From Klebsiella pneumoniae (GTDB lineage: Bacteria; Pseudomonadota; Gammaproteobacteria; Enterobacterales; Enterobacteriaceae): 64,000 nucleotides of DNA. Of the stretch, positions 8,937 through 58,136 are shown in pieces. The translations under genes were made by a program, and so were the position numbers. Below the pieces are notes generated by a model. It had not been told where the DNA came from. It ran no database searches and saw only the letters and a list, made by a program, of their open reading frames with translations. Positions within the stretch are counted from its first letter, which is position 1. Each line of letters begins with the position of its first letter. The DNA lies in contig NZ_KN046818.1 of NCBI RefSeq assembly GCF_000742135.1, forward strand, positions 1,426,841 through 1,490,840, in the 5' to 3' direction.

Positions 8937-9592
8937 AGGATTTTCATCCTTCTTTCAAGACGACGCAGAATAAAGCTCAGGACCAGGGTGATAATCAGGT
9001 AGATCACAGCTACGGCGCTCCAGATTTCCAGCGCGCGGAAGTTGCCCGCGATGATCTCCTGTCCCTGACGGGTCAGTTCGGCGACGCCGATGACGATGAA
9101 CAGCGAGGTATCCTTGATGCTGATGATCCACTGGTTGCCCAGCGGCGGCAGCATGCGGCGCAGCGCCAGCGGCAGGATCACGTGGCGAATGGTTTCGCGA
9201 CGCGACAGGCCAAGCGCCAGGCCCGCTTCGCGGAAGCCTTTATGTATGGAGAGCACCGCGCCGCGGGTGATTTCCGCGATATAGGCGCCCGAGTTTATCA
9301 TGATGGTCACTACCGCCGCGGAGAAGGGGTCGATGCGCAGATCGCTAAAGGCCATCGGCAGCGCAAAGTAGATGAACATAACCTGCACCACAATCGGGGT
9401 GCCGCGAATGATTTCAATAAAGACCAGCGCGATGTGGTTGGCGATCCAGCCGCCGAAGCAGCGGGCGAAACCGGCCACCAGACCAATTATCAGACCGCCG
9501 GCCAGGCCGAGGACGGAAATCCACAGCGTCATTTTGGCGCCTTCCAGCAAAATCGGAATGGCAGGCCAGATGGCACTCCAGTCAAACTGCAT
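8933..9592 (-). CDS. glnP: Glutamine ABC transporter permease GlnP
   Basis: Inner-membrane permease of the polar amino acid (HisM/GlnP) family; 219 residues with about five hydrophobic spans and the EAA loop [36 protein letters not shown] split around the conserved EAGLALG...ILP that contacts GlnQ. It follows glnH after about 125 bases that contain a stable hairpin and is coupled to glnQ by overlap. Confidence 0.98.
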
Positions 9593-48757: not shown

Positions 48758-49282
48758 TTTCGCTCCTGAGTTTGTTTCACTGCCGTTGCAGCGCGATCGG
48801 CGATCATGTTGGGATAAAGTTAAAAATCCGGCAAGCTTTTTTATTTGGCTGTTATTAAAGGTTTTTATGCTTACTCCCTTCAGCCAGGGGCACTCCTGGG
48901 TCACAGGGCCCGGAAAGTGTTTTTACTATTTTACAGGAGTAATATCTATAGGGTGTTACGCTACGAAGGAAAGGGCGTGATCATGGTGTATCTTATTGAT
49001 AATTAAAGCTTTAAATCATGCACGCATCTATAAAAACGCTCCCTCTCCGTCTCGGTTAAAATCTCAATGTCGCCTGAGGGTATAATTTGATGCTGATTAT
49101 TGCATCGCAATCATCTGAGGAACACAGGTTAATATTAATAAATAGAAAGTCGGTGAAAGAATTATTTTTTTACAGGGATGAACTGTTGTTTTTATCGATC
49201 GGATATACATCTTTTTCATCCCACCCAGAAAAAATAGACCATGAGAGGCGCCGACTGGCTGGAAGATATTCTGAAAAATAGC
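48758..49282. other. Gene-poor AT-rich stretch upstream of gstB
   Basis: About 525 bases. A 64-codon open frame at 49087-49281 (+) has no ribosome site and no recognisable motif, and I do not call it. Base composition is much more AT-rich than the flanking genes, as expected for acquired or decayed DNA. Confidence 0.5.
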
Positions 49283-49283
49283 A

Positions 49284-49492
49284 AAAAAAACCCAGTGTCT
49301 GGCACTGGGGAGTAAATTTACTCAGGGTTGCATGCTGTTCTCAAGATAATATTCGAGTCTCGAAGTATGGGTTAACCAAAGGTAACCATCAACTTCCATA
49401 CAGACTACATGGGAAATATACTGTATTAAATAACCAGGAATCCACCCTTACTTTTGTGCTATTTATCTTACCTGGGTAATCACTGCGGGGGT
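49284..49492 (-). ncRNA. Putative structured small RNA, element A
   Basis: Minus-strand element of about 210 bases. It ends in an intrinsic terminator: stem CCCAGTG/CACTGGG (49291-49309) followed by U8. It shares with element B (49922-50126) the order: ATTAC..., GTAAG-ATAAATAGCACA, AAGGGTGGATTCCTGGT, ATACAGTATA, TTTCCC, then a long hairpin, then the terminator. The hairpin has closing stem GTATGG/CCATAC where B has TTTATGGAA/TTCCATAAA, and inner stem GGTTA/TAACC where B has GCGGGT/ACCCGC, so base pairs change together. A -10-like TATATA at 49499-49504 sets the approximate 5' end. No conserved reading frame. Family unknown to me; the enteric RyfA/PAIR3 family is worth testing. Confidence 0.6.
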
Positions 49493-49613
49493 AAGTGGTA
49501 TATAATGCAATAATCAGTATTTGAATCTGTAGCGTTAAACGAGCAGAGCCTGGTAGAGGACTTTACTTTCCCGGAAGGATTTGAAAAAGGCGGTTAAAAT
49601 GAATGACTGATAA

Positions 49614-49798
49614 GGATGGCCAGCATACTATCGCGGTGCTATCAAAACATCCCTGCAAAACGAAATAGGGATAAAAGAAGCACTGGCGAACTGCAGTCTG
49701 GAAGAGCGAGTCGTAGAGCTCGATATGGCATCGGACGAGAAGGGTAGGAGATTACCCGGGAAGAGATGTTAATCTTTTCATCAAACCGGCGTGATTAA
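49614..49798 (+). pseudogene. Frameshifted gene remnant
   Basis: A startless frame from 49614 reads WPAYYRGAIKTSLQNEIGI, then EERVVELDMASDEKG. A shift of frame near 49747 continues EITREEMLIFSSNRRD and a stop at 49798. The two parts join to a plausible protein C-terminus, which argues for a real gene broken by a frameshift. I do not recognise the family. Just upstream, EQSLVEDFTFPEGFEKGG (about 49541-49597) before a stop could be another fragment. Confidence 0.4.
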
Positions 49799-49921
49799 TA
49801 ACGGGCAACAGAATCAGAGCGGCTCGGGGTTTTGAGAGCAATACTTCTGTAAAGGCCACGGCTGTGGATGCGCTGTTATGAATGTATTTGTAAAATTTAT
49901 CACCATCCAGAGTCGCCTTGA

Positions 49922-50126
49922 AAAAAAAAGCCCAGCGACAGGCTGGGGTGTAATTACACGCATAAAGGGATATGCCATTTTCAACACAATATGCGAATCT
50001 TAATTTATGGAATAACTGCGGGTGAGCTACCCGCTTCCATAAAGATTGCAGGGGAAACTATACTGTATTTAATGACCAGGAATCCATCCTTATCGATGTG
50101 CTATTTTTCTTACTTGTGTAATACGG
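49922..50126 (-). ncRNA. Putative structured small RNA, element B
   Basis: Second minus-strand copy of the element described at 49284-49492, about 205 bases. The terminator is CCCAGC/GCTGGG (49931-49947) with U9. Its long hairpin has a 9-bp closing stem TTTATGGAA/TTCCATAAA and a 6-bp inner stem GCGGGT/ACCCGC around AGCTC. Conserved blocks with A include AAATAGCACA and TGGATTCCTGGT. A -10-like TATTTT at 50133-50138 marks the approximate 5' end. A nine-codon frame (ATGGATTCC...) is not kept in copy A, so the product is most likely RNA only. Confidence 0.6.
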
Positions 50127-50138
50127 AAAGTGAAAATA

Positions 50139-51067
50139 GCCCGATAAACTATCTTTTACCGATATGCCGACTAAAACAGGAAAGCCGTCTGCCTGCTTAT
50201 CCAGTGGGCGAATAATTCATATCATTAGCGGGAGGCTCTCCCTTCCTGACCTCAATTCCTGATGGTGGCGTATAGGGGGATAGCTGATTGATATGCTTTA
50301 TCAAGGATATTGCGCCTCCATCGGCGGAATGCTGTGGCAATCGAAGCCCTGCTGAACATGGCGATCGGGCAGGCCCGATGGAGAGAAAAGTGCGGGCGTT
50401 GTTGCTAATTTCCTGAGACGGGCGTAATGACCGTCTCAAGCATACCCCGGGAATTCTCAACTGCATTTCAGGCGTAAATAGGGCCTACAGAACCTTCAGG
50501 TTTATATATAAGCGTCTGAGACTTCTACAGCAGCAAGCCAGATGTGGTTATTGTGAGTTCGGAAGTTGAACTGGGCCTCATGGAATGCAACCGGGCCGAC
50601 ATTTTGAGTTTTGTGAAGGGTATCAGCAGTAACAACCATCCCCGGTTCTCAGGTGAAGGGGGTAGGGGCGAGGCGACTGGATATCACTGGCCAGGCTTTC
50701 GCTTACCCCACACGCCCCGCCATAATGTGAATCTATGACCAGGCAAACCACAATGAAAGACACGCTTGCGACGTCTCTTTAGTAGCATTTTTCCCGAAGA
50801 GAAGTGAGCTATGTCATTGAAATTTCGGTGACTAATTGGTTTTGAAAGGCGATTTTTTTCTTGCCATAATAAAGTTAACATTAAGGCGATTACGATCAAA
50901 AAAATTGTTCTGATTAAAGCACAGCGGCATGTTATTGCGTAAACTTTAAAAACTTTACCAACTCGCTGTTTCTTTAAGGTCATTTGTACGCTTTACTCAC
51001 CGGTTGCTGCGGCGCGGTCAGAGTGGCGCGGCATATTTTGTTTGGAAAGGATACTTGGGTGGCTCTT
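50139..51067. other. Gene-free island upstream of dacC
   Basis: About 930 bases without a supported gene. It holds two perfect inverted repeats: ATCGGGC-AG-GCCCGAT (50363-50378) and TGAGACGG-N9-CCGTCTCA (50414-50438). A short plus-strand frame near 50540 reads SKPDVVIVSSEVELGLMECN and on to ADILSFVKG before degenerating, which may be coding debris. The last 200 bases are AT-rich and should include the dacC promoter. Confidence 0.45.
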
Positions 51068-58020: not shown

Positions 58021-58057
58021 AGCGGCGTTTCACCCGGAATGGCTAAACGCAGGCAAC

Positions 58058-58136
58058 AAAAAACCCATCAACCTTGAACCGAAGTGGCGGGGTTGATGGG
58101 CTCCACAAAATGGGGACATCAAAGAAAAGCAGTGGC
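58058..58136 (-). ncRNA. rybB: RybB, sigma-E-dependent small RNA
   Basis: Hfq-binding small RNA of 79 nt that represses many outer-membrane protein mRNAs when sigma-E is active. The minus strand begins GCCACTGCTTTTCTTTGATG, the conserved 5' seed, and ends with the stem AACCTTGAACC.../GGTTGATGGG-type terminator and U6. It differs from the E. coli sequence I remember by about one base. Location between rcdA and ybjL is as in E. coli. Confidence 0.96.

Follow-up and report, generated by a model that had tools for sequence, protein, structure and literature searches.

Between gstB and dacC, the window (the whole 64,000-nucleotide stretch of Klebsiella pneumoniae DNA analysed here) carries an island which, judged by its sequence, is a prophage remnant of roughly 2.0 kb. 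An earlier note on this DNA had described a gene-poor island but had missed the decayed prophage and the phage attachment site at which it lies. The main features of the island are these:

48814..48823, minus strand: attachment core copy TTAACTTTAT on the gstB side, a core repeat
48838..48904, minus strand: decayed tyrosine integrase 3' end with an attachment-site arm (77.9% identity over 68 bp to the integrase end of the intact prophage in the congener G013, E 1e-9)
49283..49474, minus strand: element A, whole unit (blastn to B, hand alignment)
49921..50116, minus strand: element B, whole unit of 5' module, structured 3' module and terminator (blastn to A, hand alignment)
50261..50680, minus strand: remnant of a gene for a Bro-N/P22AR-type antirepressor (Ant), a pseudogene that is truncated and broken in frame (tblastn)
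50869..50878, minus strand: attachment core copy TTAACTTTAT on the dacC side, a core repeat

The assignment to a prophage follows from the repeats of the attachment core, the decayed integrase end and the truncated Ant pseudogene taken together. The two core copies of the window lie about 2.0 kb apart. In 13 of 19 congeners the site is empty, with the dacC and gstB flanks directly joined, and the junction holds the core TTAACTTTAT, exact in nine of these genomes and as a close variant in four. Prophages occupy the site in three other congeners (G013, ~40.9 kb; G002, ~41.5 kb; G012, ~34.1 kb). Their bodies are unlike one another, and all three have one common integrase-end sequence beside the core at the gstB end; an integrase was identified in the G013 and G012 prophages, and phage families (tail, head, terminase, portal and integrase) were matched by nine long frames taken from the three stretches. 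The window's own integrase end and its arm are 77.9%, 73.5% and 74.2% identical to the G013, G002 and G012 prophages, respectively, and the other arm (50785-50870) is 72% identical over 90 bp to that of G012. In Klebsiella the gstB-dacC intergenic region serves as a prophage attachment site.

The other congeners differ at this position. G007 has a short insertion, and in G014 the site is interrupted by contig ends. G018 carries an unrelated stretch of 2.0 kb (L149, 600-2640) with a gene for an MliC-like lysozyme inhibitor (Pfam E 5e-13) and what looks, on visual inspection, like a gene for a small secreted protein with repeats.

The antirepressor pseudogene is matched by viral Ant proteins with E values down to 1e-15 and by E. 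coli Ant at E 7e-12 (tblastn), and by PHROG 245 and 5060, which fall in two frames and follow one another in the right order, though neither match is strong by itself (E 0.007-0.19). The E. coli Ant reference protein consists of Bro-N and P22_AR_C, and nothing resembling the P22AR_C half was seen in the island. The pseudogene lies upstream of B on the same strand, and B starts about 145 bp beyond it. When the whole island was compared with 5,426 E. coli genomes, 28 gave matches, and the ant region was included in every match listed (20 of the 28). A related-locus scan with the ant fragment found no relative, and the left part of the island had no match in the phage records. K. pneumoniae records annotate a 42-residue "hypothetical protein", WP_014342958.1, at about 50288-50416 on the plus strand, antisense to the pseudogene; this is probably a spurious gene call.

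Elements A and B were described in the earlier note as two related units on the minus strand, and their order and spacing are as given there, with a gap of about 440 bp. The relationship is far above chance: in a blastn comparison of the island with itself the two units align with 72.5% identity over 204 bp (E 4e-30), and the second-best match of the island has an E value of 0.26. A and B are neighbouring paralogous DNA units, and would be twin sRNA genes if they are transcribed. Each unit can be divided into the following parts:

49411..49474, minus strand: 5' module of A, candidate promoter (TGGATT-N18-TATATT, -10 at 49420-49415)
49284..49410, minus strand: predicted RNA of A, about 127 nt (-33.9 kcal/mol, z -2.45, 3/200 shuffles as good)
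49283..49309, minus strand: intrinsic terminator of A (stem 49309-49291, CCCAGTG..CACTGGG, then T8)
50051..50116, minus strand: 5' module of B, candidate promoter (TGGATT-N18-TATAGT, -10 at 50062-50057)
49922..50050, minus strand: predicted RNA of B, about 129 nt (-41.7 kcal/mol, z -4.36, 0/200 shuffles as good)
49922..49947, minus strand: intrinsic terminator of B (stem 49947-49931, CCCAGC..GCTGGG, then C and T9)

In either copy the homology breaks off at the U-tract of the terminator. The 400 bp upstream of A and of B have no match to each other, and the 200 bp downstream share a single 24-bp match (E 0.28). Because the homology ends at the U-tracts, the unit resembles a transcription unit rather than a random duplication. 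An intrinsic terminator at the 3' end, as expected of an intergenic sRNA gene, is present in both copies, in line with the T8 and T9 tails reported earlier; both terminators are undamaged amid decayed surroundings, and the scanned region holds four terminator-like sites against 1.7 (sd 1.2) in shuffles. A frame running across the terminator of B (49877-49945, minus strand) matches the G012 prophage over 23 residues, 13 of them identical (E 8e-4), its partner being the minus-strand frame of L162 that starts at 9325; this match is possibly due to chance or to shared terminator-like DNA.

The 5' modules, of ~65 bp, are the more conserved, with 55 of 64 positions identical (85.9%) and one gap, and neither has a fold (z 1.35 in A, 0.35 in B). 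At the same position, at the end of the module, stands TATATT in A and TATAGT in B, each matching a -10 element at 5/6 positions, and 18 bases 5' of it TGGATT matches a -35 element at 3/6, a poor score. The pair scores 8/12, the best sigma-70-like pair in the module of A and the joint best in that of B. The promoter scan of the region used a threshold of 9/12, so that this pair is absent from its list, which contains two promoter-like sites, fewer than the 3.4 of the shuffles. The 5' module is probably a promoter, as its sequence suggests. The blocks AAATAGCACA, TGGATTCCTGGT, ATACAGTATA and TTTCCC, previously pointed out as conserved, do occur in A and B, but they sit in the unstructured 5' module, outside the folded part; given that this module is unfolded and ends in TATATT or TATAGT, the blocks are probably promoter and not RNA.

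The statement that no reading frame is shared did not survive inspection, since a short frame over the 5' module is common to both copies (NSTKVRVDSWLFNTV and NSTSIRMDSWSLNTV). The two versions share NST..R.DSW..NTV, and the frame in B stops immediately afterwards. Their eight differences over the 18 codons of the frame are spread 3/3/2 over codon positions 1/2/3 (manual count), for which reason the frame does not look coding-like. Pfam gave no match for any of 20 frame pieces, and a coding function for the A/B region was rejected; outside ant, the PHROG matches had E values of at least 0.088. An SOS promoter under LexA control was rejected as well. The LexA box has the consensus CTG-N10-CAG, the spacing between CTG and CAG is N11 in both copies, and the best LexA-type 20-mer on the minus strand of 48700-50990 matches at 13/20 positions, the box being absent.

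The 3' modules are only 66.9% identical (83/124, with 11 gap columns), yet both fold, so that this part keeps its shape better than its sequence, as had been proposed. In longer pieces of 187-188 nt the z score is modest for A (-1.79) and -4.01 for B. The stems given earlier for the long hairpin, GTATGG/CCATAC, TTTATGGAA/TTCCATAAA and GCGGGT/ACCCGC, were found, but the inner stem GGTTA/TAACC of A contends with CCATAC for one C. The long stem continues to AGTCT/AGACT in A and to AATCT/AGATT in B, which the earlier note did not include. An additional hairpin with an AAUU loop lies immediately 5' of the terminator in the consensus and in the fold of A; in B the longer piece forms it, but the 129-nt piece, in its best fold, does not. 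Left to fold freely, A is predicted to adopt another structure, which is 4.2 kcal/mol more favourable than the B-like stem.

Consensus pairs were counted on a hand alignment in which the tail was aligned on its small hairpin. Of 24 pairs, 18 are unchanged, four have changed on both sides, none has changed on one side or is mismatched, and two are lost whole. The RNAalifold energy was matched by column shuffles in 2/400 cases for the whole unit, 142/400 for the 5' part, 8/400 for the long hairpin and 0/400 for the 3' part. The structure-conservation index gives weaker support than the energy, being matched in 32/400, 82/400, 69/400 and 4/400 cases, respectively. Under independent substitution at 28%, all 17 stem and terminator pairs survived in 0.03% of simulated runs. 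The 3' part thus has the conserved secondary structure expected of an intergenic sRNA gene. The claim that the paired changes reflect selection on RNA shape stands in part: slid versions of the 11-pair stem reach pairing in no more than 45.5% of cells, favouring structure, and no shuffle reached the energy of the 3' part, but when the letters of that stem were dealt between two sequences 130 of 500 deals equalled the observed covariation. The evidence for the modelled shape is therefore good for the 3' module overall; it is weaker for the precise form of the long hairpin in A.

In the collections searched, namely Rfam, E. coli, phage, viral and sampled genomes, no relatives of A and B turned up beyond K. 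pneumoniae itself. Among 31 genomes, blastn placed A in its own and in no other, and the same held for the A..B segment among 20 genomes of the genus. Among 5,426 E. coli genomes A had no match at E <= 1, and B had a 29-base match inside wzy in eight (E 2), which we take as chance; the earlier impression that E. coli has nothing comparable holds at the sensitivity used. In 50,697 phage records B had no match at E <= 1 and A matched seven records at E 8. Four DNA patterns found nothing in the IMG/VR viral contigs, and the strict pattern found nothing in genome contigs; the relaxed pattern hit three MAG contigs (Bacteroidetes, Treponema and Sedimentibacter), again taken as chance. A covariance model of the two elements, R1, reached E <= 1 in 25 of 392 genomes of the family scan: its own genome scored 178-183 bits, and none of the remaining 24, of which 17 are under 1 Mb, exceeded 25.2 bits (best E among them 0.0088). 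In the order scan its own genome was the only one of 394 at E <= 0.05. Nothing above 16.5 bits was seen at viral antirepressor loci (the best 80 of 360 relatives) together with one E. coli locus, and the best score on the same-site pieces of G013, G002, G012 and G018, with filters off, was 15.3 bits. The family and order samples overlap, were filtered more strictly and include a single genome for each species, which under-samples prophages borne by individual strains; since prophages vary between strains, the narrow range of A and B is partly a limit of this sampling.

The plasmid collection holds four K. pneumoniae records with at least one copy of A or B, all having the dacC neighbourhood, and the flanks of the window are 99.4-99.6% identical to three of them. 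CP125156.1, although 5.37 Mb long and containing dacC-gstB in its chromosomal setting, is filed as a plasmid; the region is also present in NZ_CP095250.1, NZ_OP378648.1 and NZ_MT439326.1. For the comparison of haplotypes three records are near-identical, and the fourth covers just dacC to about 49750. Comparing the window with the haplotype that the records share (CP095250/OP378648), we counted one substitution in 198 positions of A, one in 200 of B, three in 442 of the spacer, 15 in 747 of the left part of the island and nine in 448 of the right part. The single substitution in A, at 49298, lies within the loop of the terminator, and the T-tracts of CP125156 lack one base in A and two in B. 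Substitutions are scarcer in the A..B segment as a whole (5/840) than elsewhere in the island (24/1195; Fisher p 0.0074, for two haplotypes and a region chosen afterwards), and for A and B alone the difference is not significant (2/398 against 27/1637, p 0.099). The low polymorphism of A..B hints that K. pneumoniae may still keep A and B. The spacer (49481-49922) is about as invariant as the elements, although neither a gene nor an RNA could be recognised there.

On these comparisons, A and B are probably tandem paralogous sRNA genes brought in by a prophage that has since been mostly lost. The prophage would have inserted between gstB and dacC and afterwards lost nearly everything else. Each gene would comprise a promoter (the 5' module), an RNA of ~127-129 nt built around the long hairpin, and an intrinsic terminator, with transcription expected to start immediately past TATATT or TATAGT. 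By analogy with the many enterobacterial sRNAs of similar build, we infer that the two RNAs would act in trans, bound by Hfq through the U-tail of the terminator. Within the phage, they may well have taken part in the control of lysogeny near the antirepressor gene; phage RNAs such as sar, c4 and 24B_1 are known to act on antirepressors (PMC12197685), which makes a role in lysogeny a plausible origin.

The tandem candidate genes are possibly still retained. That they are domesticated twin phage sRNAs, kept by selection and regulating host mRNAs in a species-specific manner, with a family restricted to K. pneumoniae in the collections searched, is a more tentative proposal, and we hold it to be doubtful. 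A competing account has the elements as dead relics, phage RNA genes that once functioned and are now unexpressed or irrelevant, decaying like the rest of the stump, their shared structure an imprint of selection during phage life. The neighbouring ant and integrase are clearly dead, the polymorphism of A and B alone is not significantly low and the best fold of A deviates from the consensus stem, all of which suit this account; nevertheless both promoter-like modules and both terminators are undamaged, A..B varies less than the remaining island and the one substitution in A sits in a terminator loop, and we consider it rather unlikely.

The non-homologous DNA that follows each terminator would also fit a different arrangement, in which the tandem units are 5' regulatory regions of phage genes since deleted, such as antirepressor paralogs, each a promoter with a structured leader and a terminator like the leader of an ant operon, and not separate sRNAs. 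The nearby ant pseudogene lends this some appeal, antirepressors being classically controlled by RNA (PMC12197685), but the ant remnant lies upstream of both units and not downstream, and no convincing remnant of a phage protein follows either unit: after A there is one 23-residue match (E 9e-4 with 2,791 queries, as expected by chance), and over the terminator of B the one 23-residue match to the G012 prophage frame (E 8e-4). Such a cis-acting leader or attenuator is very unlikely. We give even less credence to the idea that the elements work as DNA, the 5' block being a site for a phage repressor, integrase or replication and the hairpins incidental. It would account for the 5' module being the most conserved part and for the odd palindrome ATACAGTAT present in both copies; against it, the 3' part is constrained by structure and not by sequence, and the homology stops at terminators that a DNA site would not need.

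If A and B, as the favoured tandem sRNA genes, are transcribed, they would form a pair of riboregulators restricted to one species, of major clinical importance, and a clear example of RNA genes outlasting the prophage that carried them, their promoters and terminators undamaged among dead protein genes, and the comparison of the two paralogs would separate the part constrained in sequence from the part constrained in shape. If they are not transcribed, the locus would be an ordinary prophage fossil. In either case gstB-dacC is marked as a prophage attachment site in Klebsiella.

Among known RNA families, Rfam recognised only RybB at its gathering score in the whole window (58055-58133, minus strand, 103 bits), and on the 2-kb region, at E values up to 5, it gave three weak matches, all far under the cut-off. 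A connection to RyfA/PAIR3 (RF00126), which is also paired in some strains, had been raised for checking and was ruled out: none of 31 genomes (its own and 30 relatives) has a match above the gathering score, and the E. coli control was positive. A and B are thus unlike RyfA/PAIR3, whose model matches nothing in their genome or in those relatives. OmrA and OmrB are neighbours, each with its own terminator. These twin enterobacterial sRNAs (OmrA/OmrB, PMC12692685) are like A and B in being two paralogous genes of partly diverged sequence, whereas A and B have no Rfam relation, are located in a prophage stump and are known here from their sequence alone.

Several phages control an antirepressor gene through a short RNA, such as sar in P22, c4 in P1 and P7, and 24B_1 in phi24B (PMC12197685). 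With these RNAs A and B share the antirepressor context, an ant remnant lying beside both; they differ in having no Rfam match, in being downstream of ant on the same strand and in showing no complementarity above shuffles to ant, gstB, dacC or each other (60 block shuffles each). A c4- or sar-type RNA was accordingly rejected as a candidate, the duplex energies with the truncated ant lying within those of the shuffles. Prophage sRNAs acting on host or phage genes have been described as well (AgvB, AsxR and IsrK; PMC12197685), and A and B resemble these and DicF as prophage-derived RNA genes, and are unlike them in lacking an Rfam relation and a known target.

Two sRNA surveys, as far as their main accounts go, were aimed at known families or E. 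coli relatives (PMC3536570, PMC3415461), and A and B would for this reason escape them. Among the best literature matches and the main-text passages covered, none reported an RNA gene between Klebsiella gstB and dacC. For K. pneumoniae MGH 78578, 69 conserved and 53 new candidate sRNAs have been listed, 75 of all of them intergenic and mostly with intrinsic terminators, DinR being KpnR_029 (Ruhland et al. 2024, PMC10907235). If the numbering follows the map, our guess is that candidates with numbers in the low twenties might be located somewhere around gstB-dacC. A and B are like the KpnR candidates in being intergenic and in having intrinsic terminators (PMC10907235), and one or the other may be among them.
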